DNA of 64,000 bases from Halovivax asiaticus JCM 14624 (GTDB taxonomy: Archaea > Halobacteriota > Halobacteria > Halobacteriales > Natrialbaceae): assembly GCF_000337515.1 (NCBI RefSeq), contig NZ_AOIQ01000008.1:39948-103947 (forward strand), given 5' to 3'. The notes under the pieces were generated by a model. It worked only from the letters and a program-made list of their open reading frames with translations. It was not told where the DNA came from and ran no database searches. Below, in pieces: positions 3,613 through 41,290 of this stretch. The number at the start of each line of letters is the position of its first letter. The stretch's first letter is position 1. Position numbers and translations under genes: made by a program.

Positions 3613-3628
3613 GGAAGAGAGAGAACTC

Positions 3629-3802
3629 ATGGCACAAGTACACAAACTCGACTGCGAAGCAGCGGTCAACGACTGCCACTTCATCATCCAATCAGAGGAC
3701 GAAGACGAAGCGCTCGAACTGGCACGGAACCACATGGAGAACGTCCACGGATCGGCGTTCTCGGACGACGAACTCCGAACGGAGTACTTACAGACGGTCT
3801 AA
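3629..3802 (+). CDS. DUF1059 small protein
   Basis: A 57-residue protein read from the ATG at 3629, with a GGAAGAGAGAG purine tract upstream that may serve as ribosome binding site. It has the DUF1059 pattern: two Cys separated by six residues near the N-terminus (LDCEAAVNDCHFII), an acidic helix, and H..NVHG followed by a C-terminal acidic helix. The function is unknown. It lies 16 nt after the AhpD-like gene, suggesting a shared job in redox or stress response. Confidence 0.75.
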   Translation: MAQVHKLDCEAAVNDCHFIIQSEDEDEALELARNHMENVHGSAFSDDELRTEYLQTV

Positions 3803-4101
3803 ACGGACCCGGAGCGGCCACCGCGCCACTCGGCGATCCGTGACGCGGCCGTCGTTCCGATCAGATCCGAAGCCCATTCGATCCGACGAACGAGACCGAC
3901 CATCGTGCGAGGGCGAGATCGGCCGATCGTCGACGCAGGCGAACCCACGACTGGTGGCGACGACGATTGCTGTGCGACGCGAACAGTCGACAGCAGGGTA
4001 AGCCACACGAGAGAGTCTCCATGCCTGTAGCGTGGTTCGACCTGACTCGGCGCGTGACGACGGGTTGGAAAAAATATTCGACGGTGATGGGAGTCGATTT
4101 G
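3803..4101. other. Intergenic region between convergent genes
   Basis: About 300 nt between the convergent DUF1059 and Cys-rich protein genes. I see no convincing gene, RNA or repeat; the open frames here lack motifs and are probably chance. Confidence 0.4.
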
Positions 4102-4545
4102 TTACCGCCGGAACGTGACGGTGTACGATTCGCACCCGCTCCACGTACACCCTTCGACGGTAACCGTCACTTCCGACAGGTCGGTGGCGGCGCACGCCTC
4201 CATACTGACGGAGTTACCGAAGAGACCGAGTTTCCAGCTCCGACAGAGGTTACCATCCTCCAGCGACACGCACTCTTTGACTGTCCCGTCGTTGAGGATC
4301 CCACAGACCTTGATCGTGTCTCCCTCGAACGTGACACAGACCTCGACAGAGATCGGGAGGAGTGGGATCGACTCACACTCCGTTCGAGCCGGCCCTACCT
4401 CCACGACGTGGGCCTCGTCACCGGCCGCTTTCGAATCTGGCGACGCAGCAGCCGCCTGTGACGCGCCAACGAGGCTGCCGCCGGCAACCATCGCACCTGT
4501 CGATTTCAAGACCATTCGCCGGGGGACGCGGTTGTCATCTGACAT
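4102..4545 (-). CDS. Tat-exported small cysteine-rich protein
   Basis: A 147-residue precursor. From the ATG at 4545 it begins with a twin-arginine signal (VPRRMVLKSTGAMVAGG, then an Ala-rich cleavage region near residue 34). The mature part, about 110 residues, is acidic and holds eight cysteines in short beta-like segments (for example EVCVTF, KVCGIL, KECVSL, EGCTWSGCESYTV), which suggests four disulfides. Haloarchaea make Tat-exported Cys-rich bacteriocins (halocin C8 type), but its Cys spacing does not look like halocin C8. No partner gene is adjacent. The function is unknown. The longer reading upstream of 4545 would overlap its own TATA box and is rejected. Confidence 0.7.
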   Translation of the reverse strand: MSDDNRVPRRMVLKSTGAMVAGGSLVGASQAAAASPDSKAAGDEAHVVEVGPARTECESIPLLPISVEVCVTFEGDTIKVCGILNDGTVKECVSLEDGNLCRSWKLGLFGNSVSMEACAATDLSEVTVTVEGCTWSGCESYTVTFRR

Positions 4546-4570
4546 TGCAAACGGCAATAGACAAGGGAGA

Positions 4571-4580
4571 TATAAATAAT
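4571..4580 (-). promoter_or_regulatory. TATA box of the Cys-rich Tat protein gene
   Basis: On the minus strand ATTATTTATA lies about 26-35 nt before the ATG at 4545. That is the spacing expected when transcription starts at or next to the start codon, so the mRNA is probably leaderless. The surrounding stretch (4560-4640) is markedly AT-rich. Confidence 0.55.
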
Positions 4581-4811
4581 TTCGTGACTTTCTCACATTT
4601 TTAGTATTGAGACTGGAAATGTGAATATTTTTCTGAGTGCTGCCAAAGTACCGTCTCGATTAATGACTTCGACAAAATTGACGGATGGAGGAACGGTTCC
4701 AAACCAACCCATCGAAATTCCAGAAATACCACGTCGAAGACTCGCCAGCATCACCAATCGCATAGTCGGCCGGGACCGCGGCAGCGCTAACAGCGTATAT
4801 GGCTCCGTTGT

Positions 4812-5477
4812 TCAGGCGATCGCTCCGATCTCGACGGCGACTTCGTTACGACGCATGAACGGCGGTGTCCACGGATCGTCGTAGCGCAACAGGAATGGGC
4901 CGTCGACAGGTTTGTAACCCGCTCGTTCGACCGCTCGCAACAGCGCTCGTTCAAGACTGTTGACACGCCAGGCCGATGCGTACCACGAGAAGCGTTTTAC
5001 GGCGACCGTCCGTGGTGGGTCGATCGCGAGCGAGACGGCAGGATCTATCGGTTCCGGCGCCGACTCTGGGTCGAGAGACGGAGGAAGGTAGAACGACATG
5101 CGCAGTTTGCCGTCGACAGGCGAGGCCGGTCCGTGCGTCTGCAGCTCGGCACCCACCTTCGTGTCCGTTCGAACGGGCGCAGTCATCCCGATCGAATCGC
5201 CGCGACGAGATTCGACGGGGCGGGTCATCGAAAGCGTCGAGGCGCCCTCGTTCGCCCCGGTAATGTACCGGTAGAGCCGGCGAAACGCGTCCCGCTGGTT
5301 CGACGCCGTCGTCTCGACACGAACCGTTTGCGGATAGGTTCGGATCTCCAGTCCGTCCACCGACCGGCGGTGTGCATACGGGATCGCCTCGGTCGACCGG
5401 GTGGTATAGATTCCCCAGGCGATCCAGCCGGAGAGCGCGGCGGCACCAACGAAGATGGCTTTCGAAAGCGATCGCAT
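4812..5477 (-). CDS. SOUL family heme-binding protein, membrane-anchored
   Basis: The 221-residue protein starts with a hydrophobic segment (residues 5-22, IFVGAAALSGWIAWGIY) that acts as an uncleaved anchor or signal. The SOUL domain follows: YRYITGANEG, the conserved SMTRPVE and IGMTAPVRT core, MSFYLPPSL, and the C-terminal LLRYDDPWTPPFMRRNEVAV. These are the hallmark motifs of the SOUL/HBP family, which binds heme or porphyrin-like ligands. I chose the ATG at 5477, just before the hydrophobic segment, over one 13 codons upstream. It appears to be a single-gene unit. Confidence 0.88.
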   Translation of the reverse strand: MRSLSKAIFVGAAALSGWIAWGIYTTRSTEAIPYAHRRSVDGLEIRTYPQTVRVETTASNQRDAFRRLYRYITGANEGASTLSMTRPVESRRGDSIGMTAPVRTDTKVGAELQTHGPASPVDGKLRMSFYLPPSLDPESAPEPIDPAVSLAIDPPRTVAVKRFSWYASAWRVNSLERALLRAVERAGYKPVDGPFLLRYDDPWTPPFMRRNEVAVEIGAIA

Positions 5478-5653
5478 AGTACTCGTTCGCGACCCAGCCC
5501 GATGAAGGGCGGGCACGAGTGAGGGGATTCGTCAGGCCCGCCCAGCCCGAGTACGTGCCGACCGGACTGCCAAATTCCGAAATACAACGCGAACCAAGCC
5601 GTCATGTCGGGTGTCGCCGGCGAGACCGTGGACGAACGCGCCCCGAGTCAGTC

Positions 5654-6382
5654 TCACCGCCGACCGTACGTCGCTTCGAGGTACGCCGCCAGTTCGGTGA
5701 CACGATCGGGGTCGTCCGTCCAGAACCCCCGGTACTGGCCGGGGTTGCGTTCCTCGGCGACGATCGCGGAGGCGTTCAGAGCGGTCTCACCGCCGTCGAA
5801 ACAGACGAACCAGAACGCGTCGATCTCGCCGCCAACCTCGTCGGCAAGGTCGATACCCGGCGGCGAGTCGTCGTCCCACTCGTCGGCGACGAGGACGCGA
5901 ACGGTCAGGTCCGTCTCCGTCGCGAACCGATCGTAGATGCGCAGTTGGTCGGCGAACGCCGCTGCCGTCTGGAAGCCGACGACCAGACGCCCCGCGCCGG
6001 TCCGCCACGCCCGCTCCTCGATCTCGCGAGTTACCGCGAGGAGCTGTCCCCGATTTGCAGACGTAAAGAGCGTGTTGTCGAGAAACGAGAAGATGGCCGC
6101 GGTATCGACGGATTCGTCGAGTTCCCACGGCGGGTGGTGTTCGGGGGAGAGAAGCGCGTCCAGCCGGTCGAGTCCGATCGCGCCGCGGAAGTCGCCCGCC
6201 GCATCCCGGACGAGCAGGAACCCCGGTTCGTCGCTCGCCGGCATCGGCCGGTGTCTGACCCGGACGTTCCGGGTCGAAAACTGCTCCGACAACGCCGTCG
6301 CGGTCGATTTCGACGCCGCGTAGACCGAGAGCGTACGCCGACGTGATTCGATCGATGCCACGGCATCGCTGAGTGACTCCAC
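5654..6382 (-). CDS. DICT sensory domain protein
   Basis: A 242-residue soluble protein of the haloarchaeal DICT family, a ligand-sensing domain also found with cyclases and two-component proteins. Its sequence has the expected layout: an N-terminal region (MESLSDAVASIESRRRTLSV), the central FLDNTLFTSANRGQLLAVTR and a C-terminal FWFVCFDGGETALNASAIV followed by GFWTDDP. It lacks an output domain. The gene upstream (6389-6751) encodes a probable winged helix protein only 6 nt away in the same direction, so the pair likely works as sensor plus DNA-binding partner. Confidence 0.8.
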   Translation of the reverse strand: MESLSDAVASIESRRRTLSVYAASKSTATALSEQFSTRNVRVRHRPMPASDEPGFLLVRDAAGDFRGAIGLDRLDALLSPEHHPPWELDESVDTAAIFSFLDNTLFTSANRGQLLAVTREIEERAWRTGAGRLVVGFQTAAAFADQLRIYDRFATETDLTVRVLVADEWDDDSPPGIDLADEVGGEIDAFWFVCFDGGETALNASAIVAEERNPGQYRGFWTDDPDRVTELAAYLEATYGRR

Positions 6383-6388
6383 GCCCGC

Positions 6389-6751
6389 TCACCCGCGGAG
6401 TCCGAGCGCCGCGTTCACCGTCTCCTGACGGGGTGCCGCCTCGATCGTCTGGTTCGACCGATCGTAGGTGACGTACCCGGTCGCGTCCAGTTTGGGTAAC
6501 ACGGCGTGGTGAAGGCGAATGCGCACGTTTTCGTGATCCGCGGGTGTCGCGATCGTTCCCGAGCGCATCGCGGTGAACCCGGCGACGAAGTCCGCGAGCT
6601 GTGAGAGGGTCCGGTTCGGGTCGTGTGCGAGCGCGTAGACGGCGTACCGGGCATCCTCGGTGGAGAGGATCTCGAACACGTCACTCGGCATCGACTCGTC
6701 TCCGGCGAGTTGTTGTCTCGCGATCGTCGTTTCGAATCGGTGCCAGTCCAT
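6389..6751 (-). CDS. Winged helix-turn-helix DNA-binding protein (DUF7344 type)
   Basis: A 120-residue protein starting at the ATG at 6751. The pattern VFEILSTEDARYAVYALAHD, then LSQLADFVAG and RIRLHHAVLPKLDATGYV with YDR near the end is the haloarchaeal DUF7344 winged-helix arrangement (helix, recognition helix, wing). It probably binds DNA as a transcription regulator. It lies 6 nt upstream of the DICT gene in one operon, a pairing that recurs in haloarchaea. The ligand and targets cannot be inferred. Confidence 0.8.
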   Translation of the reverse strand: MDWHRFETTIARQQLAGDESMPSDVFEILSTEDARYAVYALAHDPNRTLSQLADFVAGFTAMRSGTIATPADHENVRIRLHHAVLPKLDATGYVTYDRSNQTIEAAPRQETVNAALGLRG

Positions 6752-6863
6752 GCCGTGGTTCACGGTATCGAGGCGCAAAGTCGTATTCCCTGCACGCACG
6801 AGTATCACCAACCGCGACCGATCGGACCGATCCGGGCGGACATCATTCGATCGGCAACGAGCC

Positions 6864-7325
6864 TCACTGCTCGAACTCGCGTGTTCGGTCGCGCTCGTCG
6901 ACCTCGTCGGCGACGGCCGGCGGATGATCGGCGGTAATCGAACCGCCCGGCTCGTTCGTCGCGGACGGGGATTCGGTTCCCCAATCTGGCCCGTCGAACG
7001 AGTCGTCGGCGGCCACCAATCGGTCCAGTCGCCGCTCAAATTCGTCTTCGTCAATCTCGCCCGCGGCGTACCGGCGCTTGAGTTCCTCGTAGGCGTCGGA
7101 CTCACTGGAGTGTGAATCCGATACCCCTCGGTCGTCGAACAGCGAGGCGATTTCGTCGCCCCAGAAGAGGAAGATCGGCGTCAGGAGAAACCAGCCGACG
7201 ATCGATACCACCCCAGCGAGCGTACTGAAACCGGCGACACCGGCGAGGCTCACGAGCGCGAACGTCACGACACCGATCAACAACCAGCAGTCGTCGGCCA
7301 CGAACTCCCGAAGTCGCTCACCCAT
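6864..7325 (-). CDS. SHOCT domain membrane protein
   Basis: A 153-residue protein with two membrane segments near the N-terminus (about residues 13-32 and 36-55), followed by a short loop and a SHOCT motif (AYEELKRRYAAGEIDEDEFERR), the short helical oligomerisation module found at protein C-termini. An acidic disordered tail of about 50 residues follows. I start at the ATG at 7325, directly before the hydrophobic region. It is likely a small membrane protein that oligomerises; the function is unknown. Confidence 0.8.
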   Translation of the reverse strand: MGERLREFVADDCWLLIGVVTFALVSLAGVAGFSTLAGVVSIVGWFLLTPIFLFWGDEIASLFDDRGVSDSHSSESDAYEELKRRYAAGEIDEDEFERRLDRLVAADDSFDGPDWGTESPSATNEPGGSITADHPPAVADEVDERDRTREFEQ

Positions 7326-7466
7326 ACCAGCTGAACGAACACGTTCGAGACTACTGGATCTTCCGGACCACCAGCCGGCGTGGCAATAGGAGCCGGTGGC
7401 ACGCGGGTGCCGGCGACCGACCGCGTCGATCCAAAGAATAACTGCGCCACCCGCCAACTACCGCGT

Positions 7467-8648
7467 ATGCAAGATGCCTACATCGTCGACGCCGTCCGCA
7501 CGCCCTTCGGTAAGCGAGGTGGATCGTTTCGAGACATCCACGCCCAGGATCTCGCGGCGGCACCGCTCGAAGCCCTCGAGGATCGGAACGACTTCACACA
7601 GAGTGGCTACCCCGAGGACGTCGTCTACGGCTGCGTGACGCCGATCGGCGAACAGGGGATGAACGTCGGTCGGCTCGCACCGCTCGTCGCCGGATGGGGC
7701 GACGAAATTCCCGGCGTCCAACTGAACCGGATGTGTGGCTCCGGCCAGCAGGCGATCAACTTCGCCGCGGGGCAGATTCGCGGCGGACTGGCCGACGTCC
7801 TCGTCGCCGGCGGCGTCGAACACATGACCCGCGTCCCGATGGGAGCCGATTCGGCGGCCGACGCGGACACGTACGCCGCCGAAACGGGCGTGACGGAGAC
7901 GTACTTCGAGCACGTGGACGAACTCACGACGCAAGGTGAGGGAGCCGAACGCATCGCCGAGCAGTGGGACTGTCCACGCGACGAACTCGACGGACTCGCC
8001 GTCGACTCCCAGCGCCGATGGGGCCAGGCGGACGAGGCGGGCCGCTACGACGAGCAGCTGATTTCGGTCGAGGTCACGGTCGACGGCGAGGAGCGCGTCG
8101 TCGAACGCGACGAACACCCGCGCCCGGAGACCGACCGCGAGACGCTGGGTGAACTTCCGCTGGCCTTCCGCGAAGCGGGCGAGGGGGTCGTCCACGCCGG
8201 CAACGCCTCCGGAATCGTCGACGGCGCCGCGGCCACGCTGATCGCTTCCGGCGAGGCCTGCGAGCGCTACGGCTGGGACCCCCTCGCGCGCATCGTCGAC
8301 ACGCAGGTCGTCGGCGTCGATCCGATCACCATGCTCACGGGGCCGATCCCGGCGACGGCAGAACTCCTCGAACGCAACGACCTCTCGGTCGACGACATCG
8401 ACCGCTTCGAGGTCAACGAGGCCTTCGCCTCCGTCGTCGCTGCGTGGCTCGCCGAGACTGGCGCCGACTGGGAGCGGACGAACGTCTGGGGCGGCGCCAT
8501 CGCCCACGGCCACCCGCTCGGCGCGACCGGGGCGGCGCTGGTCGGCAAGCTTCCCTACCAGCTCGAGGCCTGCGACGGCCGGTACGGACTCTCGACGATG
8601 TGCATCGGCTTCGGACAGGGCATCGCGACGCTGATCGAACGGGTGTAG
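7467..8648 (+). CDS. Acetyl-CoA C-acyltransferase (thiolase)
   Basis: A 393-residue thiolase, the usual family length, condensing or cleaving acyl-CoA (acetoacetyl-CoA thiolase or beta-ketothiolase). Motifs: the nucleophile Cys90 in NRMCGSGQQAIN, the NEAFA motif (RFEVNEAFASVV), the His in GGAIAHGHPLGATGA, and the second active-site Cys in STMCIGFGQGIA. I start at the ATG at 7467 (MQDAYIVDAVRTPFGK), the conserved beginning of the family; the upstream extension lacks similarity. Whether it serves beta-oxidation or mevalonate and ketone synthesis is not evident, and no partner genes are adjacent. Confidence 0.93.
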   Translation: MQDAYIVDAVRTPFGKRGGSFRDIHAQDLAAAPLEALEDRNDFTQSGYPEDVVYGCVTPIGEQGMNVGRLAPLVAGWGDEIPGVQLNRMCGSGQQAINFAAGQIRGGLADVLVAGGVEHMTRVPMGADSAADADTYAAETGVTETYFEHVDELTTQGEGAERIAEQWDCPRDELDGLAVDSQRRWGQADEAGRYDEQLISVEVTVDGEERVVERDEHPRPETDRETLGELPLAFREAGEGVVHAGNASGIVDGAAATLIASGEACERYGWDPLARIVDTQVVGVDPITMLTGPIPATAELLERNDLSVDDIDRFEVNEAFASVVAAWLAETGADWERTNVWGGAIAHGHPLGATGAALVGKLPYQLEACDGRYGLSTMCIGFGQGIATLIERV

Positions 8649-8787
8649 GCGCCGTCGAGCCGGCTGCCACCGTCGGGCCAGATACCGATCGTCGGTCCGA
8701 TCCAACCGGATATTGTCAACTCACAAATATTGTAAGATTGTGTAGGGTATTACGTCCCTCCGACGCGTGCTCACTACTGGGAGAGTC

Positions 8788-9379
8788 ATGAGCACCATCA
8801 CACCAGGCACCGAAGAATCGATCGAGACGAACTGGCGCCCGCTCGCGGTTGCGGGCGGACTGATCGCCGTACTGGGACTGATCGCGGCCGCGCTGCCGTT
8901 CGGTACCGGTATCGCGCTCGCGTACGTCCTCGGCGCCGCGCTCCTCGTCGGCGGCGTCGTCCACGCCGGACACGCGTTCACGACCGACGGGTGGGCGGGG
9001 TCGCTCTGGCAAGCGGCACTCGCCGGGATCACGATCGTCGCCGGCCTCCTCATCCTGGGCAACCCGCTGATCGGTCTCGCGAGCCTGACGCTGCTGGCTA
9101 TTGCCTACCTTCTGGTCGACGGACTGGCGGAGCTCGTGGCGAGCCTCCGCATGGGAAGCGGCTCGGGCCGTGGCTGGGTCGCGGCCAGCGGCGTACTCTC
9201 GCTCGTCCTGGCCGGACTTCCTGTGGGCAGGGTTCCCCGTCGACGCTGTCTGGGTCGTCGGCGTGCTTGTGGGCGCGAGCCTGTTCGTGACCGGGGTCTC
9301 GATGATCGCCGTCGCGTACGGTACCCGCAGGATGGAGAGACACGTCCCAGAGCCGGGAGAGAAATCTCGCGGCGTGTGA
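8788..9379 (+). pseudogene. HdeD family membrane protein, frameshifted
   Basis: The HdeD family of small membrane proteins has about six membrane segments. From the ATG at 8788 the frame encodes typical segments (LAVAGGLIAVLGLIAAALPF, ALAYVLGAALLVGGVVHAGH, ITIVAGLLILGNPLIG). After GVLSLVLAG, near 9215-9222, the frame turns into Arg-rich nonsense. The expected continuation (LWAGFPVDAVWVVGVLVGAS, then FVTGVSMIAVAYGTRRM) is in the +1 frame, ending at the TGA at 9379. Removing one base from GGACTTCCTGTGG restores a continuous protein of about 196 residues. Either a real disruption or a base-call error. Confidence 0.8.
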
Positions 9380-9434
9380 AACCCTGTTCTTTCGCGACGG
9401 TAGATGTCCAGTGGGACCCTACGCTCGTCGTCCC

Positions 9435-10715
9435 TCAAACCCCCAGACCGAACGCCAGCCCCAGGATCCCGATTCCGAACGCGTACAACGGGATCACGTA
9501 GCGCCAGACGGTGTTCGGAACGACGCGGACGAGGTAGGGACCGACGATCGCCGCGAGAAACCCACCCGCGAAGATAGAGGGGAGGAGTTGCAGGTCTACC
9601 GGAACGCCGTAGTAGATGAGGCCCAGGAACGCGATCGAGCCGACGAACGAGGCGATACCCTCGGCGAGCGTGGTGATCGCGACCGCGCTCTTTTCGTACA
9701 CGCCGGAGAAGATCTGGCCGAGCGTCACGACTGGGCCGTAGCCGCCGCCACCGATGCCCTTGTTCACGCCGGCCAGCAGGGCGAATCCGACGAGCCGACG
9801 GGGGCGATACGTCATTCTCGTCCGTACCTTCACCCGCAGGAGTCCGACCAGGCCCATCAGCACGACCAGGATCGAGACGTACGTTCGGACGAACGAGTCC
9901 GGCAGTTCGAGCGCAAAGTACGTCAGGACGGTCGCGCCGGCCACGCCGACGAGGCTCGTCACCGCGAGCAGCGAGAGGAGCTTCGTCTCGTCGTTGGCGG
10001 GACACAGCGAAAACGTGACGTTGTCCACGTCGTGGTGGACGAGCCCGGCGACGAGTCCGGCGATCGTTTGCGCCATCACGAGGACGGGGACGACCTGCAG
10101 GGGCGTATACCCGAAGACGAACAACAGCGGCGCGATGGCGGTCCCGAATCCCATCCCCGCCGCGGAGTCCGTCGTCTGGAAGACGAACGCGACGACGACG
10201 ATAGACGGGACGAGCGGCGTTCGGCCCGCTCCGTCCCCGAAAGCGAGAATCAGCCCCGCCGTGAACAGAACGTACAGCACACCAAGCAGCGCGAGACGTC
10301 GAAGCACCGGTCGTGGCAACCGCAATCGATCGGCCACCGTCCGCGTCCGGTCCAGCGCCTCCGCCTGCACCCCGATCTGGCGCGGCGGTTCGTCCGAGGG
10401 AAGCTCTTCGGCGCGGGGCCCCGTGTCCGGTTCGTACGTCTCGACGCCGAGTCCCTCTGGGGTGACGCCCAGCTCGGCGGCACGCTCGCCCAGTTGCTCC
10501 CGCGAGACACCCAGTTCGGTCGCCCGTTCGCCGATCCCGCCGGTCACGCCGTTCGCAGAGCCGTCGTCCACGTCGCGCTCGTCGGTGCTCGCACCGGACT
10601 CGTCGAGGAGATGGTCGTCGGTAGCCGGGTCGGGTTCGTCCCTGTCCGTCGCAGAATCGTCTCCCGCTTCCCTCCCGCCGTCTTCGTCCGCTGGGCCGCC
10701 GTCGTCTCGGGTCAC
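9435..10715 (-). CDS. TauE/SafE family membrane exporter with long N-terminal extension
   Basis: A 426-residue protein. The last 280 residues form the TauE/SafE (DUF81) fold with eight or so membrane segments: the conserved GFGTAIAPLLFVFGY in the first half and ALLAGVNKGIGGGGYGPVV in the second. The family exports sulfite, sulfonates or other anions, and the substrate here is unknown. The first 140 residues are an acidic disordered region (DEDGGREAGDDSATDRDEP) followed by a helical motif (ERATELGVSREQLGERAAEL). I start at the GTG at 10715, 8 nt after the hydrolase stop codon, giving an operon of the two genes. Confidence 0.85.
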   Translation of the reverse strand: MTRDDGGPADEDGGREAGDDSATDRDEPDPATDDHLLDESGASTDERDVDDGSANGVTGGIGERATELGVSREQLGERAAELGVTPEGLGVETYEPDTGPRAEELPSDEPPRQIGVQAEALDRTRTVADRLRLPRPVLRRLALLGVLYVLFTAGLILAFGDGAGRTPLVPSIVVVAFVFQTTDSAAGMGFGTAIAPLLFVFGYTPLQVVPVLVMAQTIAGLVAGLVHHDVDNVTFSLCPANDETKLLSLLAVTSLVGVAGATVLTYFALELPDSFVRTYVSILVVLMGLVGLLRVKVRTRMTYRPRRLVGFALLAGVNKGIGGGGYGPVVTLGQIFSGVYEKSAVAITTLAEGIASFVGSIAFLGLIYYGVPVDLQLLPSIFAGGFLAAIVGPYLVRVVPNTVWRYVIPLYAFGIGILGLAFGLGV

Positions 10716-10722
10716 GGTCGCC

Positions 10723-11382
10723 TCAGGCGAGGTGCTCGGCGAACCAGTCGGCAGCGTGGTCCGCGACAGTCTCGAGTTGTCCTTCCCCCTCGAAGAGGTG
10801 TCCCGCGCCGGGGACCACTTCGAGTGAGCGGTCGCCGCCGAGTTGCTCGAAGGCCGCCTCGTTCCACTCGCGGACGGGGTGGTCGGCCCCGCCCACGACG
10901 AACAGCGTCGCCGCCGTGACGTCCCCGAGGACGGCCTCGGCCATGTCGACGCGACCGCCGCGCGAGACGACGGCGCCGACGTCCGTCTCCGGCCGGGCCG
11001 CCGCACGGAGAGCGGCCGCCGCCCCGGTGCTCGACCCGAAGTACCCCACGGCGAGGTCGCCGACGTCCGAGCGCTCGCGAACCCACTCGGTAGCGCCGAC
11101 CAGCCGTTCCGTGAGGAGGTCGATATCGAATCGCGCGTCGGGGTCGCGATCCTCCGCCTCCGTCAGCAGGTCGAACAGGAGCGTGCCGACGCCGCGCTCG
11201 CGCAGACGCTCGGCGACGAAGTTGTTCCGCGGGCTGTGCCGACTGCTGCCGCTGCCGTGGGCGAACAGCACGAGGCCGCTCGCCCCCTCGGGCACGCGGA
11301 GATCCCCTTCCAGTTCGACGTCGCCGACGTCGATCGCCTGGATCGATTCCGAACCGGTCGTCGACTGATTCGGCTCGTCCAT
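10723..11382 (-). CDS. Dienelactone-hydrolase-like alpha/beta hydrolase
   Basis: A 219-residue single-domain alpha/beta hydrolase. Oxyanion region: LVLFAHGSGSSRHSPRN. The nucleophile Ser is in GYFGSSTGAAAAL, the acid Asp in VVGGADHPVREWN, and the catalytic His in VPGAGHLFEGEG. The fold is right and the triad is complete. The substrate is unknown. It lies 8 nt ahead of the TauE-type exporter in the same direction, so they may be co-transcribed; the family often occurs beside phosphoribosyltransferase or transport genes. Confidence 0.85.
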   Translation of the reverse strand: MDEPNQSTTGSESIQAIDVGDVELEGDLRVPEGASGLVLFAHGSGSSRHSPRNNFVAERLRERGVGTLLFDLLTEAEDRDPDARFDIDLLTERLVGATEWVRERSDVGDLAVGYFGSSTGAAAALRAAARPETDVGAVVSRGGRVDMAEAVLGDVTAATLFVVGGADHPVREWNEAAFEQLGGDRSLEVVPGAGHLFEGEGQLETVADHAADWFAEHLA

Positions 11383-11540
11383 CGCCCGTCGTACACCGTC
11401 TGCCGGATTAAACGAGCGGGGTGGCCAAACGGTCCGAGGAAGGTCGTGGCTGCGATATCTGTGCTTCCGAATCCCGGGTCAGTGTCAGGTCACGGTTTCA
11501 GCCTCGGTGTGGAGAGACCACCGACAGCCGCCCGGTCGCC

Positions 11541-11975
11541 TCAAACCAGGTCGGTATAGATCGCGTCCATATCGACGCCGAAGGTGGACGAGAGGTACGC
11601 GAAGGCCTCGCTCCGTTGCGAAGGCGTACTCTGCTCGTCTAGCCGTTCGAAGAGCGCCGACAGGAACGGCTGCATCGCCCGGTGCAGGGTTTCGGTGTCA
11701 CCAGCGATCGTGATGTCCTCGGAGAAGACGCGACCACCGAGCTGGACGGTGTCGTCCGATTCGTGCAGTTCGTACGCCGCGAGTTCCCTAACATCAGCGT
11801 CGGACCCGTCTTCTGCAGCGAGATAGAGACCGAGCAGTGCCGTCAGTGAGTCCTGTTGCTGGATCGTCTGCTCATCGGTCCTGATGGTGTACTGGATCTC
11901 GTCGGGAGCCATCCCACCGGTCACCTCGTACCAGTCTGTACCGGAGGAGAGGTCCCGAAGCGTGAACTCGATCAT
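11541..11975 (-). CDS. Uncharacterised protein at the end of the immunity array
   Basis: A 144-residue acidic, soluble protein (MIEFTLRDLSSGTDWYEVTG) with mixed beta and helical character. I recognise no family. It lies 105 nt after the SUKH immunity gene in the same direction and is the last gene before the array ends, followed by about 160 nt of intergenic DNA. Its size, acidity and position match neighbouring immunity proteins, so it could be another immunity gene, but this is only inference from context. Confidence 0.7.
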   Translation of the reverse strand: MIEFTLRDLSSGTDWYEVTGGMAPDEIQYTIRTDEQTIQQQDSLTALLGLYLAAEDGSDADVRELAAYELHESDDTVQLGGRVFSEDITIAGDTETLHRAMQPFLSALFERLDEQSTPSQRSEAFAYLSSTFGVDMDAIYTDLV

Positions 11976-12080
11976 ACGCTATCGGACTGTCCTGTCATCG
12001 GACACGACTTTAGTTGACCGTTCGTTGGGTTCGGTTTCGGTTAGGCAGAGGGGTTTACAGAGCTTAGGGAGCCACAAAAT

Positions 12081-12557
12081 TTACTCGTCACCTGCGTTCG
12101 TCCCGCGCTTTCGGATTTCGTCGAACAACCATTCGGAGAAGGTATCCGACACCAGCTCGGGTTCCTCGTCTTCCATATATCGATAGACCGGCGGATCGGC
12201 TCCCGCCTCTGTGTCAAAGAACCAGAAGGCTGACCCCTGAAGACCCCGGAAGACGAAATCCGAGTGGTCGAACGAGAAGTCGAGGTGCTCCCACTCGTCG
12301 AGACTGTCTTCGGCGAACTGACGCTGATATTTCGGCGCCGGATACGTGAATTCGCTTCCGCGGAAAAAGCCGTTCGTGTCCGCTCTAATGTGACGCATGC
12401 ACGACCGGTATGCTGCCGGGAGTTCGAGATCGAACTGTTCTTCCAGGCTGTCCAGTTCCTCGTCAGTACAGCCACGAATCTCCGAGCGCGGGCCGTAACC
12501 GTGTTCGACGAGATGGGCGACTGCCTGCTCGCCAATGGACGAGTCAGTTGCTGTCAT
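12081..12557 (-). CDS. SUKH (SMI1/KNR4) family immunity protein
   Basis: A 158-residue protein. Near residue 28 it has the diagnostic SUKH start, GCTDEELDSLEEQFDLELPA followed by AYRSCMRH, and then a core with DEWEHLDFSFDHSDFVFRG, and WFFDTEAGADPP before a C-terminal helix SEWLFDEIRKR. SUKH proteins neutralise nuclease and other toxins in bacterial polymorphic toxin systems. It lies 29 nt after the colicin-D-type immunity gene in the same direction. That two unrelated immunity families stand in one array downstream of a putative toxin is the main reason for calling this a toxin locus. Confidence 0.85.
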   Translation of the reverse strand: MTATDSSIGEQAVAHLVEHGYGPRSEIRGCTDEELDSLEEQFDLELPAAYRSCMRHIRADTNGFFRGSEFTYPAPKYQRQFAEDSLDEWEHLDFSFDHSDFVFRGLQGSAFWFFDTEAGADPPVYRYMEDEEPELVSDTFSEWLFDEIRKRGTNAGDE

Positions 12558-12586
12558 GGATATCTAGCCCCCATCTGGAGCGAGGG

Positions 12587-12880
12587 TTACCTGTCGTTTT
12601 CGTCCAGGAGTTCGTTCAGTTCTTCTAATACTTCCGTTGCAGACGCTTCGAGTTCCGCTTCCCCGATGCCACCGATAACATCGTCTCTGAGTTCCGGCCC
12701 GCAATACGCATCAGCCTCCACAAAGAGATAGTCGAGAGATTCGAATACCTCATCGTCAGGTATCTCGTCGTCATCCAAGAATTCGTTCATGTATTTCGTA
12801 GAGAACTCCGTGGCAGTGACCTCTCCACGCACGAACTCTCTGATCAAGTCCGTATACTTTCGGACGTATTCTTCGTTCAT
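12587..12880 (-). CDS. Colicin-D-type immunity protein
   Basis: A 97-residue acidic helical protein matching the bacterial self-protective colicin-like immunity family (colicin D/E-type ImmD fold): LIREFVRGEVTATEFSTKY, then MNEFLDDDEI, VFESLDYLFVEADAYCG and PELRD. In bacteria this family blocks tRNase toxins. I start at the ATG at 12880; the longer ORF upstream overlaps the intergenic space and is basic, unlike the family. It sits 62 nt after the nearest small paralog and 29 nt before the SUKH gene, all in one direction. Confidence 0.75.
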   Translation of the reverse strand: MNEEYVRKYTDLIREFVRGEVTATEFSTKYMNEFLDDDEIPDDEVFESLDYLFVEADAYCGPELRDDVIGGIGEAELEASATEVLEELNELLDENDR

Positions 12881-12942
12881 CGGTTCTCCCCTAGTTCTCC
12901 TCCTACTCGACAGAAACACGAGTAGCAGGCTCACCTGTGTGG

Positions 12943-13281
12943 TTATTTCCCCGACCGGCCGAGGTCCGTCAGGGCACCCGTATCGAGATCTATTCTGTAT
13001 TCGTGTTTATTCCAACTCCACCCGATCGCTTCACCATCTCGGGCCCGTATTCCGGCGAACATGTGCCGGTCATCATTCTCGGGAATCTCTGACTCCCAGC
13101 ACTTCTCTCCGGTCGTGTCGAATGCGAGCACGTTTCTTCTATCGTGGTTCCCCTCACCGGGATACAGAAGCACGAGGATTTTGTCCCCGACCTCCAGCGT
13201 CTCCTCGATCCGGTGGCGGAGTGTGATAGTCGTCTCGCCGTCGATGCGGAGTTCGGTACCGCTGTAGTCTATCGTGGTCAT
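12943..13281 (-). CDS. Tandem immunity-like paralog, copy 3 of 3
   Basis: A 112-residue protein, third copy of the paralogous set. Shared core: ILVLLYPGEGNHDRRNVLAF, then GEKCWESEIPEN, HMFAGIRA and AIGWSWNKHEYRIDLDTGAL. This pattern resembles a large family of small beta-rich immunity proteins in bacterial toxin loci with a D..TG motif near the C-terminus. It is 38 nt after copy 2 and 62 nt before the colicin-D-type gene. A toxin-binding role is inference. Confidence 0.75.
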   Translation of the reverse strand: MTTIDYSGTELRIDGETTITLRHRIEETLEVGDKILVLLYPGEGNHDRRNVLAFDTTGEKCWESEIPENDDRHMFAGIRARDGEAIGWSWNKHEYRIDLDTGALTDLGRSGK

Positions 13282-13319
13282 TGGGTGGTGTTCAGGAGTG
13301 CGGCGAGGACAGTCGGTGT

Positions 13320-13658
13320 CTACTTTCCTCGAAAGCCTCGATCTTCCAGTTCGCCTGTCTCAGGGTCGATTCGATATTCGTGCTTGTTCCAACTCCAGCC
13401 GATGATATCGCCATCTTCCGTCGTCAAACTGCCAAACATATGTCTGTCTGATTTTTCAGGGATCCCCGACTTCCAAAGCAGGTCCCCATCGTACGAGAAG
13501 GCGAGGACGTTTTGCCGGTCTCGACCAGCGTCCTGACTGGGAGAGAGCAAGACGAGGACTCGGTCTTCCATCTCGAGCACCTGTCCAATAGGATGATCAA
13601 CTTCGATATCGGTGCCACCGATCGTCAGTACGTTCCCGTCGGACAGTACCGCTGGCAC
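13320..13658 (-). CDS. Tandem immunity-like paralog, copy 2 of 3
   Basis: A 112-residue protein aligning end to end with the flanking copies: VLVLLSPSQDAGRDRQNVLA, LLWKSGIPEKSDRHMF and IIGWSWNKHEYRIDPETGEL. It has the most diverged N-terminus (MPAVLSDGNVLTIGGTDIEV), although the start aligns with copy 1 codon by codon. It is 52 nt after copy 1. Diversified tandem copies are usual in immunity gene arrays that cover several toxin variants. Confidence 0.75.
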   Translation of the reverse strand: MPAVLSDGNVLTIGGTDIEVDHPIGQVLEMEDRVLVLLSPSQDAGRDRQNVLAFSYDGDLLWKSGIPEKSDRHMFGSLTTEDGDIIGWSWNKHEYRIDPETGELEDRGFRGK

Positions 13659-13710
13659 GGAACACTCACCTCGTACAGGCTCTATATCGGGAACAGTTCA
13701 TCGTGGAAGG

Positions 13711-14046
13711 TTATTTCCCACCGTAGCCGAGGTTCTCTAGTTCACCGGTGGTGGGATCGATTTTGTACTCGTTGTGGTTCCAGCTCCAACCGATCACGTC
13801 ATCGCCCTCCTTGTACAATTCTCCGAACATGTGCTTTTCCGAGTTTTCTGGTATTTTCGACTCCCAGAGTTTGTTTCCAGATTTGTCGAAACCAAGCACG
13901 TTCCGGCGATCTCGATTCCCTTCTTCCGGATACAATAAGACCAGAAGAGTACCCTCTGCCTCGATAACGTCGTCAATTTCGTGACGAAGCATCGTGCTTT
14001 GTTCCCCGATCGTTAACTCCCGGCCGTTGTAGTCTACTCGAGTCAT
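13711..14046 (-). CDS. Tandem immunity-like paralog, copy 1 of 3 (toxin-coupled)
   Basis: A 111-residue protein whose ATG (14046) overlaps the stop of the putative toxin gene by 4 nt (ATGA), so its translation is coupled to it. Core: LLVLLYPEEGNRDRRNVLGF (residues 34-53), KLWESKIPEN, HMFGELY and IGWSWNHNEYKIDPTTGEL. This one is the most likely cognate immunity protein because of the coupling. The family name is unknown to me; the aromatic W..N..Y.ID..TG pattern recurs in small immunity-type proteins. Confidence 0.8.
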   Translation of the reverse strand: MTRVDYNGRELTIGEQSTMLRHEIDDVIEAEGTLLVLLYPEEGNRDRRNVLGFDKSGNKLWESKIPENSEKHMFGELYKEGDDVIGWSWNHNEYKIDPTTGELENLGYGGK

Positions 14047-15014
14047 TGGTTTTCGTTTTGGACTTCTGAAAGTGGCCCGACCATGTTGAAACTGTCCTTC
14101 GGGAAGAAGTCGGTGAGCCAAAATTGCTCCTCGCCCCCCGGCCGTTCGACGGGCGCCGTTTCGCGTTCAACAACCGCCGGCGAGTCATCTTCCATCGGGG
14201 CAATAATGGTCGAGAGAATCGATGTGTTTTCGTCCCCCGTGATCGTGAGTTTCGCGACCATATCATACCCCGGTTCCCCATCCTCGTACTTGCTCCACTC
14301 CTCTTTCAGGCCGAGAGCGTTCAAAATGTCCTCCCGGCTGCTTTGAGATTGGATCGTTTCGAGTCGGGCGAAGAACGGACCGCGCTCTTTGCCTTCCTTG
14401 GTCATCCTGTATAGTTGATCCGCGTCACTCGGTTTGAACTCTAGCGCGATACAGCCAGGTTTGTGAGGAGCGTCGGCATCTTCGTTGGTTTCAAAGTACC
14501 ACTCGTTCGCTTCGTCGCCGGTCATGAACGCGACCGGTTCGTGGCCCTGCTGGACGATGTTCCGATGGTACCGGTCGAGCGCATCCTCGATCACGCCCCA
14601 CCCGTTGGCTTCGATTTCGCGCTGGATCACGTCGGACTCGATCGTCGACTGCCAGGAGGCCCACAGCTCGTCGTCCGCCCTGATCTGATCGAGCGCCTCG
14701 AGCCTGGACCCGTCGAGTGAGTCGTACAGCGACTCCAGCGAAGATCGTTCACCGGCCTCGCCGTCCAGCGATGCCTGCCCTGGTTCCTCGGATTGCGGGT
14801 GGCGCTGGATCGGCGCTCCTGGCATCCCCATATCGGGAACGCCCGCGTCCGGCATAGGCGAGTCGGGCATCGGGGAATCCGGGATCGGCGCGTCCGGCAT
14901 GCCCATCGGCGTCCCGAGGGCCGAGTCTGCGTCGCGCTCCGCCTCGTCGTCGGCGTTGTCGCGCTCGCTCGCGCGCTCCCGGTCCGCGCGCTTCCGGCGC
15001 TTCTTCCGGCCCAT
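14043..15014 (-). CDS. Putative polymorphic toxin / effector heading an immunity array
   Basis: A 323-residue protein. Residues 1-34 are extremely charged (MGRKKRRKRADRERASER). Residues 35-72 form a Met/Pro repeat (PMGMPDAPIPDSPMPDSPMP, then DAGVPDMGMPGAPIQRHPQ). Residues 90-323 are a globular, acidic domain with aromatic motifs (DEANEWYFETNEDADAPHK, GCIALEFKPSDADQLYRMTK, EEQFWLTDFFPKDSFNMVG). There is no signal peptide or known toxin domain, so export by Tat or Sec is not evident. The promoter side is AT-rich and a GGAGG stretch stands 9-10 nt before the ATG. The toxin call rests on position: its stop overlaps the first of five or six immunity-type genes. Confidence 0.55.
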   Translation of the reverse strand: MGRKKRRKRADRERASERDNADDEAERDADSALGTPMGMPDAPIPDSPMPDSPMPDAGVPDMGMPGAPIQRHPQSEEPGQASLDGEAGERSSLESLYDSLDGSRLEALDQIRADDELWASWQSTIESDVIQREIEANGWGVIEDALDRYHRNIVQQGHEPVAFMTGDEANEWYFETNEDADAPHKPGCIALEFKPSDADQLYRMTKEGKERGPFFARLETIQSQSSREDILNALGLKEEWSKYEDGEPGYDMVAKLTITGDENTSILSTIIAPMEDDSPAVVERETAPVERPGGEEQFWLTDFFPKDSFNMVGPLSEVQNENQ

Positions 15015-36798: not shown

Positions 36799-38538
36799 TT
36801 ACGAGCGAACGAGCAAGTTTCCGTCGTCGTCGTACCGGTGGCCGATCGACCTGAACTCGTTTCGCACGGCGTCCACGTCGAGTTCGCCGTCTTCGCCGAG
36901 GAACGGCGTCACCGGGTCGACCCCGTCCCATGCGAGCGAGTCGGGTTGCCAGGGTTCGCCGAGCGGCGACGCCACCGGTGTGGCCGCACCGGCGAAGACC
37001 GACTCGACGAGCGATGGCTTGTCGAGGAGACCGGCGATCGTCCGACGGAAATTCGGGTTCAACAGTGGGGCGTTGCGGGTGTTGTACCCGATATAGTAAA
37101 GCGACTGGCTGGGGCGTTCGTGCGTGACCAGGGGTGGCGCCGCGGTGTACGAACTCGCCATCACGGGATCGAGTGCCGACAGCGTCAGGTCGGCCTCACC
37201 GTCTTCGATCGCCGCTACCGCCGCCTCGGTGTCTTCCGTAACGGTCACTTCGAACGTGGTGATCGGCGTCTCCGGAAGCTCGGCAGTCGTCGTGAAGTGG
37301 TCACCGTTTCGGGAGAGGGTGAGGCGCTCGCCTTCCTCACGGTCGTCGAACGAGAAGAGGCCGCTCCCGATCGGGGGAACGTTATCCGTGACGACGGCGA
37401 CCGTCGCGCCACTCGGCGTCTCCACGTCGACGAACTCGGCCGACTCGGTCCGGTCCCGCCAGAGATGGGCCGGCAAGATCGGGATCGTGAACGCTTGCTC
37501 TGTGGCGGCCCTCCCGGCTTCAGGCGTGATCCGAACGCGGTGGTCATCGAGACGGGTGACGTCCGCAATCGCCGTCGCCAGGCCCCGGTAGAGTGGTGCG
37601 GGAATCGGCGCCTCGGCGGAATCCATCGACGTGTCCGCCAGAAAGTCGTACGTGAACGCGACGTCCTCGGCGGAAACCGGCTCACCGTCGTGCCACGACG
37701 TCTCGCGGAGTGTCAGCGTCGCAGTGCCGTCATTCCACGTCCAGGAGTCGGCCAACCACGGGCGTACGTCGCCGTCGACGGTCGTGGCGAGGGAGTCGTA
37801 GAGGAGATCGTCGATCGGCGAACGTGAGTGACGACCCCCGATTCCGAGCGGATTGAAGTGACGCGTCACGCGTTCGTCGGTCACGACGGCCCGAAGCGTC
37901 CCGTCGGCGGCGGTCGACTCGATGTCCACGAACGCGTACCGTTCGGAGAGTGGGTGGCGGTCGAAGCCGACGAATCGATCACCGTTCCAGACGTGACGCG
38001 ACGTCGGCCGACACAGCGGACTGAAGGGTTGGTTGGCGGCAAACGATTCGAGCGTGTCTTCGACGGCCCGTTCGCGAGCGGCTCCCGTTCGGCGTCGCTG
38101 TCGGTCGAGATTCGTATCGAACGAGACGTTCGAGAAACCGTAGGGATTCTGCCAGCCCCACTCCGCGTCGAACCGGGTGTGCAACAGTCCGTACAGTGCC
38201 GACGGATCGGCGAGTCGCGGCGTTCGATCGACGAAGAGATCGAACTCGTGATCGATCAGAATCCGGCGGAGAAAGCGCGATTGCGGAAGCGTCTCTCGCT
38301 CGACGTCGATGCCGGCGGTCTCGAGCGCTGACTCGAGCCGGTCCGCCACGGCGGCTGCCTGGCGGTCGTCGGCGGGACTGACGCTCGCGACCGAGAGCGA
38401 GAACTCGTCGGCCGGGTCGTCGCGAAAGAGGTTCCTGAGTCCGCGCATACAGCCGGACAGTCCGAGGAGGCCACCAGCCGTCGCCGTCCCGAGCACCGTT
38501 CGCCGAGAGAGGGGAGACTCGAGGGTAGTCGAATCCAT
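36799..38538 (-). CDS. Family-5 solute-binding lipoprotein with permuted lobe order, paralog A
   Basis: A 579-residue exported lipoprotein. The twin-arginine signal (LSRRTVLGTATAGG) ends in the lipobox LGLSGC, Cys30. It belongs to SBP_bac_5 (oligopeptide/nickel-type ABC binding proteins): NGTAT-like region LRETSWHDGEPVSAEDVAFT (the DGEP.TAEDV motif), PILPAHLWRD. The order is unusual: residues about 40-200 (LSVASVSPADDRQAAAVADR, FLRRILIDHEFDLFVDRTPR, GWQNPYGFSNVSFDTNLDRQ) match the usual C-terminal lobe, while the protein ends where canonical ones have the lobe junction. No permease or ATPase gene is near. Confidence 0.85.
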   Translation of the reverse strand: MDSTTLESPLSRRTVLGTATAGGLLGLSGCMRGLRNLFRDDPADEFSLSVASVSPADDRQAAAVADRLESALETAGIDVERETLPQSRFLRRILIDHEFDLFVDRTPRLADPSALYGLLHTRFDAEWGWQNPYGFSNVSFDTNLDRQRRRTGAARERAVEDTLESFAANQPFSPLCRPTSRHVWNGDRFVGFDRHPLSERYAFVDIESTAADGTLRAVVTDERVTRHFNPLGIGGRHSRSPIDDLLYDSLATTVDGDVRPWLADSWTWNDGTATLTLRETSWHDGEPVSAEDVAFTYDFLADTSMDSAEAPIPAPLYRGLATAIADVTRLDDHRVRITPEAGRAATEQAFTIPILPAHLWRDRTESAEFVDVETPSGATVAVVTDNVPPIGSGLFSFDDREEGERLTLSRNGDHFTTTAELPETPITTFEVTVTEDTEAAVAAIEDGEADLTLSALDPVMASSYTAAPPLVTHERPSQSLYYIGYNTRNAPLLNPNFRRTIAGLLDKPSLVESVFAGAATPVASPLGEPWQPDSLAWDGVDPVTPFLGEDGELDVDAVRNEFRSIGHRYDDDGNLLVRS

Positions 38539-38660
38539 TCAGTTCGTTCACCGTTCGACGGGCTGACTATAACAGTATTACGCCCGAGCACGACGTGTGG
38601 ACGATCACCCGACAATTCGGGGACTAATGGCCGTGCCAGCGCTTCGAAACTCGAGTGTCG

Positions 38661-39548
38661 CTACCGGTGCCTTCGTTCGTCAGCACTGTCACCGGTCGCT
38701 CTGACCCGATCGGCGACAGCGCCAAGACGGTCGTAGGCGGGCTGGAGGTGGCTGTCGACATCGTATCGGCCGATCAAGCGACACGAGAGCCAGACGCACG
38801 TCCCCGCCAGGAGCAGGCCTCCCAGGACGTCGATCGCCCAGTGAATGCCCAGATACATCGTCGAGAGCCAGACGCTCACGGCCAGGACGCTCGCCGCTGG
38901 GGTCCACGCGGGGAATTGCGATCGAGACCTGATCGCGAAGATCATGACGGTCGCAGAGAGCGACGTGTGAAGCGACGGAAACACGTTCGTGTAGTGGTTG
39001 ATCTCTCTGGTGAGGAGCTGATAGGACGGTTCGAACGTATAGAGCATCGTCTCGACGTCGCTCCCGAAGTATTGTCGTGGGCCAAAGGCGTGGAACAATA
39101 CGTACAGCGTGACGCCGATCGTATAGTTGAGTGCGTACGCACCGAGCAGACGCCGCAATTTCGTCGAGTCTTGCAGCGTGAAGTACATCACGACCGGGAA
39201 GATCAGCAAGAACACGTAGCCGTAGATGTAGATGAACGAGAAGTACTGTGTGAGCTGTGTCGAGGCGATCGTCTCGAAGACGAGAATGAACCGGCCCTCG
39301 ATGACGTAGAAGAGGTCACCGACCCGGAAGCCGTACTCCTGGGAGATGGTGACGAGATCCTGCCTGGCGAGTTTGTTCACGATCAACACGGGGACGAGCG
39401 CGAGCGTCACGGGCAACGCAGCACGGACACGCGGTCGCCAGTTGCGAAGCGCCTGGAAGAGGGTACCGAACCCGATAACCTGCCAGATTGCGATCGCCAG
39501 CAAGAGCGCGACGATGACGGTAACCCGACTCAGGATACTGACGAGCAT
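38661..39548 (-). CDS. PAP2/Aur1-like membrane phosphatase or phosphotransferase
   Basis: A 295-residue polytopic protein with about six membrane segments. The PAP2 motifs are FPSLHTSLSATVMIF and STMYLGIHWAIDVLGGLLLA, with His and Asp of the phosphatase site. The PSLHTS and YLG.H..ID variants are those of Aur1-type inositol phosphorylceramide synthases rather than classical PAP phosphatases. A role in polar lipid headgroup transfer or polyprenyl phosphate recycling is inferred. Its ATG overlaps the stop of the upstream solute-binding gene by one base (TGATG), so the pair is translated together. Confidence 0.85.
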   Translation of the reverse strand: MLVSILSRVTVIVALLLAIAIWQVIGFGTLFQALRNWRPRVRAALPVTLALVPVLIVNKLARQDLVTISQEYGFRVGDLFYVIEGRFILVFETIASTQLTQYFSFIYIYGYVFLLIFPVVMYFTLQDSTKLRRLLGAYALNYTIGVTLYVLFHAFGPRQYFGSDVETMLYTFEPSYQLLTREINHYTNVFPSLHTSLSATVMIFAIRSRSQFPAWTPAASVLAVSVWLSTMYLGIHWAIDVLGGLLLAGTCVWLSCRLIGRYDVDSHLQPAYDRLGAVADRVRATGDSADERRHR

Positions 39549-41290
39549 CAGTTGCCCACCACCAGTTCGTCCGAGTCGTTGTACTCGAAGCTCGCCTCGC
39601 GGAACAGATCCCGTGCGGCCTCGACGTCCACCTCACCGTCGGTGCCGACGAACGGCGTCTCCGGATCGGCACCCTCCCACGCGTAGTCATCCATCGCCGA
39701 CGTATCGACTTTTGGGACCGAGAGTGGTTGTGCGTGACCGTGGAAGACGGTCTCCGCGAGCCACTGTCGATCGATCAGGGAGGCGACGGCCCGGCGGAAT
39801 CGATGGTTGCTGAACGGGTGTTTCTGGGTGTTGAACCCGATCTGGTAATACGCCCACCCCGGATCGGTAATTCGGGTGGCCGTCTCCATCTCCTGGGTCT
39901 CGCCGATGACGTCGGCTTCGATCGGCGTAACGAGGGCCGAAGCGTCACCAGCGTCGACCATCTCGATCGCCACCGACCCGTTGGAGGCGTTTCTGAGGAC
40001 GAGCGACTCGACGGGAACGCCCGGAAGGTCCGGATCCTCGACCGAGAAGTGTTCGTCGAATCGACCGAGCGTGAGCTGGTCCCCCTGTACCCAGCTCTCG
40101 AACTGGTATGGACCGCTCCCAACGTGGCTGAGCGACTCGGCCATGAGTTCCTCACGGAGCCAAGTGGCCGTCGAGGCCGTCTCCTCGTCGAGTTCGTCGA
40201 CGAGCGGTCGCCAGACGTGCTCCGGGAGGATCGGAACGGTGAGGACGGACGTCGCCACCTCTCGGGAGGCGTCGACGGTACATTCGACCGTCTGGTCGTC
40301 GAGTGCCGTCGCTGAGGTGACCGCGGATGTCTCCCGGCGAAACCGGGGCGCCGGGACCGGGGAGTCCGCTCGCCCGAGCGAGAGGTCGGTGAGGAATTCG
40401 AACGTAAAGGCGACGTCTTCGGCAGTGAGCGGTTCGCCGTCGTGACACGTCAGGTCGGGCCGCATCGTCGCCGTGAGCCGTCCGTCCTGCCACTCCCAGT
40501 CGCGAGCCATCCAGGGAGACAGCCCGTCACCCGACTGGGTCGCCAGCGAGTCGTACAGAAGCGAAGTGATTGCACCCGTATGGCGGTAGTGAGTGGCGAG
40601 GGGATTCAGGTTCTGCGTCGGTCGGGCATCCGTGACGAGGCCGTCGAACTGATCGACGTCGGCGGCCGGATCGAGATCGACGTAGCCGAGTCGGGTCCGA
40701 AACGACTGACGATCCCAGCCGGTGAACTCCTCGTCGTTGACGGCGTAGTAGGCCGCAGGCGCACAGACCGGGACGAACGGCTTCGTGGCAAGGAAGCTAT
40801 CGAAGACGGACTCGATCGCGGTGGTCCGGTCGGTTCCGGTCGCGTGTCTGAGTTGTTCGAGTCGCTCGTCGAGATCGATGTTCGTCACCCCATAGGGGTT
40901 CTGCCACCCGGGCTCGTACGCGAACGTCGAGTGGAAGAGCTCGTACAGCCCGTCAGGTCGCGGTGTTCCGGGATACCGACCGACAAAGATGTCGAAGTCT
41001 TGGTCTATCAAGACCTTCTTTTCGAACTGGGCAGTCGTCCTGAGATCCGGAGTGACGTCGATACCGGCCGCCCGAAGTGACGATGCGAGGTGTTTGAAGA
41101 TCCCATTGCTCTGGCGATCGTCGTCGTCCGGAACCGTCGTGATCGTCACCGAAAGCTGATCGCCCCACGACGCGACCTCGGTGAACAGTTCCGTGCAACC
41201 GCTGGTCGAAAGGGTAACCCCGGTCCCGACGGTCGCGAGAAACGCCCGACGAGAGCGTCGACCGCTCGAATGCGGTCCGGTTCCGGTCAT
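39548..41290 (-). CDS. Family-5 solute-binding lipoprotein with permuted lobe order, paralog B
   Basis: A 580-residue exported lipoprotein. Tat signal (SSGRRSRRAFLATVGTG) ends in STSGC, Cys32. Residues 45-200 (QLSVTITTVPDDDDRQSNGI, DQDFDIFVGRYPGTPRPDGL, GWQNPYGVTNIDLDERLEQL, and KPFVPVC) resemble the canonical C-terminal lobe of SBP_bac_5. Residues 218-580 (LVTDARPTQNLNPLATHYRH, then TCHDGEPLTAEDVAFTFEFL, LTVPILPEHVWRPL) resemble the canonical N-terminal lobes. The protein stops after VDVEAARDLFREASFEYNDS. It is co-translated with the PAP2 gene. Ligand unknown. Confidence 0.85.
   Translation of the reverse strand: MTGTGPHSSGRRSRRAFLATVGTGVTLSTSGCTELFTEVASWGDQLSVTITTVPDDDDRQSNGIFKHLASSLRAAGIDVTPDLRTTAQFEKKVLIDQDFDIFVGRYPGTPRPDGLYELFHSTFAYEPGWQNPYGVTNIDLDERLEQLRHATGTDRTTAIESVFDSFLATKPFVPVCAPAAYYAVNDEEFTGWDRQSFRTRLGYVDLDPAADVDQFDGLVTDARPTQNLNPLATHYRHTGAITSLLYDSLATQSGDGLSPWMARDWEWQDGRLTATMRPDLTCHDGEPLTAEDVAFTFEFLTDLSLGRADSPVPAPRFRRETSAVTSATALDDQTVECTVDASREVATSVLTVPILPEHVWRPLVDELDEETASTATWLREELMAESLSHVGSGPYQFESWVQGDQLTLGRFDEHFSVEDPDLPGVPVESLVLRNASNGSVAIEMVDAGDASALVTPIEADVIGETQEMETATRITDPGWAYYQIGFNTQKHPFSNHRFRRAVASLIDRQWLAETVFHGHAQPLSVPKVDTSAMDDYAWEGADPETPFVGTDGEVDVEAARDLFREASFEYNDSDELVVGN

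Follow-up and report, generated by a model that had tools for sequence, protein, structure and literature searches.

Cluster C solute-binding proteins, grouped in Pfam as SBP_bac_5 (PF00496) and represented by AppA (1xoc), DppA (1dpp), OppA and NikZ, are built in the canonical order of an N-terminal and middle module, M1, followed by a C-terminal module, M2. Natural circular permutations are uncommon among proteins. A permuted binding protein was nevertheless described in 2016, when TpMglB-2 (Tp0684) of Treponema pallidum was found to be a permuted Type I binding protein and was named 'Type Ic / Cluster Bc' (PMC4990184). That paper covers one family and no repeated origins (PMC4990184).

The window studied here is the whole stretch of 64,000 nucleotides from Halovivax asiaticus that was analysed. 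It encodes two paralogous proteins, P0001 and P0002, which are almost certainly DppA/OppA-like members of cluster C (Pfam SBP_bac_5) with a circularly permuted chain.

Swapped modules in the two window proteins

P0002 is a family-5 solute-binding lipoprotein of 580 aa (39548-41290, minus strand) and P0001 a second one of 579 aa (36799-38538, minus strand), the two sharing 36% identity. Both carry a Tat signal and a lipobox; in P0002 these were read from the sequence and the lipobox pattern as SRRAFLA and TSGC with Cys32 (41195-41290, minus strand). In the same protein, module M2 takes up residues 43-200 (40691-41164, minus strand) and is the counterpart of the segment that ends canonical proteins (canonical HMM positions ~339-492). 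Residues 201-213 (40652-40690, minus strand) are the last part of the new junction that links the canonical C-terminus to the canonical N-terminus, and module M1 follows at residues 213-578 (39557-40654, minus strand), corresponding to the canonical N-terminal and middle segment (canonical HMM ~12-334). P0001 is laid out likewise, with M2 at residues 41-203 (37930-38418) and M1 at 213-576 (36811-37902), both on the minus strand. Such an order, with M2 before M1, makes the window proteins a permuted variant, not ordinary members of SBP_bac_5.

The two proteins match PF00496 at 143.9 and 154.5 bits, above the gathering cut-off of 32.4, while NCBIfam gave sub-cut-off Opp/Nik matches and nothing above. 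The Pfam match starts late, at residues 257-258, and stops at profile position 259 or 285 of 368 beside the protein C-terminus, so that the C-terminal lobe segment is absent from its usual place. A first-pass annotation had proposed that the lobe order is reversed in both paralogues, and an HMM built from canonical bacterial C-terminal segments alone bore this out, placing M2 in P0002 at residues 44-216 with 66 bits (E 2e-18) and in P0001 at 41-214 with 53 bits (E 2e-14). The resemblance of the N-terminal part to the canonical C-terminal lobe was thus kept under profile searches, and hhalign agreed. With an alignment of 31 haloarchaeal relatives as input, in which P0001 was one row, residues 43-212 were aligned to canonical columns 361-515 (probability 99.3, P 6e-21) and residues 213-580 to columns 26-357 (P 7e-62). 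The two halves abut on the canonical columns at a single cut, and all segments of the fold are thus covered.

Comparison with AppA (1xoc) gave three blocks in swapped order, in which window profile positions 209-270 matched chain residues 44-108 and positions 357-504 matched 178-317, while the start of the profile (14-164) matched the chain end (357-503). Even a single query sequence matched dozens of canonical bacterial proteins twice, with the two matches reversed in order, as in L006 (query 228-538 to 63-368 and query 35-192 to 376-529), and a profile search of whole genomes agreed. Profiles were required for solved structures, because single-sequence phmmer against the PDB matched the swapped half weakly.

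Predicted structure of the permuted chain

The AlphaFold model of mature P0002 reached a pLDDT of 87.5 and a pTM of 0.88, and its top 50 matches in the PDB were all family-5 type binding proteins. A sequential aligner superposed 392 columns of the model on AppA (TM 0.48-0.52) and 386-389 columns on DppA (1dpe, 1dpp; TM 0.40-0.50). As a control, L192, a canonical paralogue from the host genome, was modelled at a pLDDT of 87.6 and aligned with DppA over 522-530 columns at TM 0.77-0.83. The first nine elements of P0002 (E15 H27 E46 H54 E69 H82 H106 H120 E140) are the last nine of the control (E342 H359 E375 H384 E398 H411 H449 H464 E484). After these, E182 H201 ... H524 of P0002 correspond to E16 H36 ... 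H326 of the control, H524 and H326 being the respective last helix before the cut, and the linker at the joint spans approximately residues 186-213 in the model. The P0002 model therefore has neither a canonical topology nor an unrelated fold, but family-5 elements in circularly shifted order. The natural permutation with a shared cut that had been proposed for the pair is backed by the profiles, by this confident model with its cyclic element shift, and by the modelled canonical control.

According to the model, the two-lobed cluster C fold and its cleft are retained in the permuted chain. The permutation would alter how the chain is connected and which lobe bears the membrane anchor, and nothing else. 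No permuted chain was present among the 60 best profile matches in the PDB.

One could argue that a domain that is unrelated, or no more than similar, makes up the N-terminal 170 residues in front of a C-terminally truncated binding protein, with no permutation involved, and Pfam indeed leaves residues 40-215 unrecognised. This is very improbable in view of the scores of the canonical-only M2 HMM and hhalign, the matched AppA block 357-503, the identical order of secondary-structure elements, and a cut that is contiguous to within a few residues. Fusion of an unrelated domain is refuted already at the sequence level by the canonical-only HMM, hhalign and the AppA block. That the swapped order is an artefact of assembly or gene prediction, for which the draft state of the assembly speaks and nothing more, has a negligible probability, because the identical M2-M1 order stands in uninterrupted reading frames in many further genomes, of which several consist of a single contig.

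Distribution of the permuted order

A search for homologues of either order found 102 permuted and 110 canonical open reading frames, duplicates included in both counts. The permutation thus stands for the two paralogues in which it had been noticed, but it is a peculiarity neither of these two nor of archaea: the permuted order is widespread in archaea, in several subfamilies, and is present in some bacteria. Many genomes of the host's order contain window-type relatives that are collinear over their full length, and one window-type reading frame (G106:C1:1384577-1386301) has a single in-frame TGA and is possibly a decaying gene. The permuted groups comprise several haloarchaeal subfamilies, an Archaeoglobus-like lineage, Thermoproteota, Actinomycetes, Clostridia and one betaproteobacterium. 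A broader profile added further permuted subfamilies, one in the host genome (contig C6, L004/L114) and others across the haloarchaea. Three of the six family-5 binding proteins detected in the host genome are permuted, the order of the one on C6 being assigned from its homology to L186/L191 and a full-length profile match.

Permuted proteins were also met in another family of the host's phylum (G520, G461, G453 and G500) and in the phylum to which a Thermoproteota MAG belongs (L005, L138 and L139). The bacterial cases are sparse and comprise a betaproteobacterial MAG (L013), two actinomycete genomes and one genome of the clostridial class. The class of the betaproteobacterial MAG yielded at least 1 of 369 genomes (its own source), the actinomycete class at least 2 of 198 and the clostridial class at least 1 of 291; these counts are lower bounds because strict cut-offs were applied. 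Nearly all permuted proteins are membrane-tethered through a lipobox or a C-terminal helix, which may say little, since archaeal binding proteins are usually tethered.

Gene neighbourhood and possible function

Most of the permuted binding proteins examined outside the window type lie in dppBCDF operons, which were found at L173-L182, L184-L186, L189, L191 and L225-L227 and, verified with Pfam, around L114 in the host genome. At L183, L187, L188 and L190 the sets are incomplete or lie further away, and L172 has no dppBCDF nearby. The association spans haloarchaeal, Archaeoglobus-like, Thermoproteota, betaproteobacterial and actinomycete genomes. Since most of these proteins sit in such operons, it is very likely that the permuted form serves ABC importers as their binding protein. 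L114 itself (2953-14667 on host contig C6) is located between two Dpp permease/ATPase gene sets, of which the downstream one is a complete DppBCDF and the upstream one is partly inverted.

The neighbourhood of the window type is different. No relative of DppB or DppC is adjacent to the window genes or to 19 window-type relatives (L115-L133). Instead, a PAP2_3 superfamily membrane phosphatase gene (38661-39548, minus strand), which scores above the Pfam cut-off for PAP2_3 (PF14378) and is a conserved neighbour of the window subfamily, lies between the two genes; its start overlaps the P0002 stop by 1 nt, and P0001 comes after it. A PAP2_3 gene is directly downstream in 18 of the 19 relatives, across several families, and no other neighbour is conserved to that degree around them. 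The PAP2_3 superfamily includes IPC-synthase-like enzymes.

The ligand of the window type may differ as well. In DppA, Asp408 binds the peptide amine. The corresponding motif, GW.aD.gDP, is present in L176/L177, while the window type reads VGR.PG..DP, with the Asp seemingly replaced, so that peptide binding by this subfamily is doubtful. From the gene order, a low-confidence proposal that falls somewhat short of an even chance is that the window subfamily binds a ligand other than a peptide with a free N-terminus and presents or senses it for the PAP2_3 enzyme. A less favoured but still plausible alternative is that the window proteins are ordinary orphan binding proteins of an ABC importer whose permease is encoded elsewhere, the PAP2 gene being an incidental neighbour. 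Binding proteins can share permeases, and the host genome has five Dpp/Opp ATPase pairs; against this, PAP2_3 is the sole well-conserved neighbour, immediately downstream in nearly all relatives and joined to P0002 by the stop/start overlap in the window.

Cut point and number of origins

The profiles and the model show that the canonical chain is opened within the C-terminal lobe, at the loop that leads from the helix of the A..lL.eAGy motif to the following strand. A linker of ~28 residues connects the old C-terminus with the old N-terminus, and the new N-terminus bears the Tat lipoprotein signal. The cut falls at canonical HMM ~335-338 in nearly all permuted lineages. In L185 (7633-9300), whose sister L202 is canonical, it lies ~20-30 HMM positions upstream, with the C-terminal part ending at 306 and the N-terminal part starting at 325. 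A likely route is tandem duplication of the binding-protein part, after which the first M1 and the last M2 would have been lost while the signal peptide and any C-terminal anchor stayed put. Related archaeal proteins have the architectures SP-M2-M1-TM and SP-M1-M2-TM. Duplication with loss of the outer halves fits because L005 and L020 have the signal peptide and the C-terminal membrane anchor at the same places with the inner order swapped. In four archaeal permuted proteins, L005 (5644-7479), L138, L139 and L176, a C-terminal membrane anchor ends the chain and follows the other module than in canonical relatives.

Trees were built on the un-permuted concatenation of the modules, and topologies were tested under LG+G4. 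These trees need 6-7 order changes, 4-5 of them forced by well-supported branches, with the caveats of long branches, quick trees and groups named after the tree had been inspected. The permutation probably arose more than once; one clade of all permuted sequences was rejected (dlnL 253, p 1e-18). It is likely that the module order was switched at least three times, mostly at one loop. The opposing model, one ancient permutation with later reversions in place of several independent permutations, is improbable. In its favour, a large group A, containing the window type, several dpp-linked haloarchaeal types and the betaproteobacterial and actinomycete sequences, lies on one side of a branch with support 77-86, and joining it with the Archaeoglobus-like lineage (p 0.099) or L139 (p 0.396) was not rejected. 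Nor was the joining of L185 with L186/L191. Against the model of a single origin, besides the failure of the single clade, stand the rejection of group A joined with the Thermoproteota pair (A+B, p 0.007) or with L186/L191/L185 (A+D+E, p 1e-7), the displaced cut of L185, and two pairs of sisters that differ in module order, L185/L202, whose halves are 45% and 34% identical, and L005/L020, for which these values are 40% and 36%. Furthermore, any reversion would be a second permutation in itself.

Several independent switches, taken together with the gene neighbourhood, lead to a combined model that is possible but rather unlikely as a whole, in which the loop after the A..lL.eAGy helix is a permutation hot spot, used at least three times with function kept, and the window-like subfamily has left ABC transport to become the ligand-presenting partner of a PAP2_3 enzyme.

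Comparison with known binding proteins

Searches of the open-access literature turned up neither a permuted binding protein of cluster C nor a pairing of PAP2_3 with such proteins. The earlier statement that no such permutation had been reported therefore holds, within that literature, for the cluster C class but fails for binding proteins generally, given TpMglB-2 in 2016 (PMC4990184). The permuted class is invisible to Pfam's one-piece model, which leaves the swapped half unannotated. The opposite-order sisters L185/L202 and L005/L020 allow the effects of connectivity and anchor on folding, closing and DppBC docking to be tested, while the pairing with PAP2 hints at a possible use of binding proteins outside ABC import.

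TpMglB-2, an ABC binding protein, resembles the window proteins in being tethered and naturally permuted (PMC4990184), but it is a member of the Type I/cluster B sugar-binding class, which is unrelated to cluster C, and its permutation differs. The window proteins do not have that fold, as their best solved relatives are of cluster C. With canonical cluster C proteins they share the modules, the predicted fold and lipoprotein anchoring, whereas their order is M2-M1 and their anchor would be on a different lobe. The window subfamily furthermore differs from canonical cluster C in having neither an adjacent permease nor the peptide-amine Asp, and the DppBCDF/OppBCDF company of cluster C, absent at the window type, is present at most other permuted loci examined. 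In conclusion, a permuted Type I binding protein was already known (PMC4990184), while the permutation of cluster C appears to be new, its probable recurrence and the PAP2 linkage of the window subfamily being the aspects that most merit attention.
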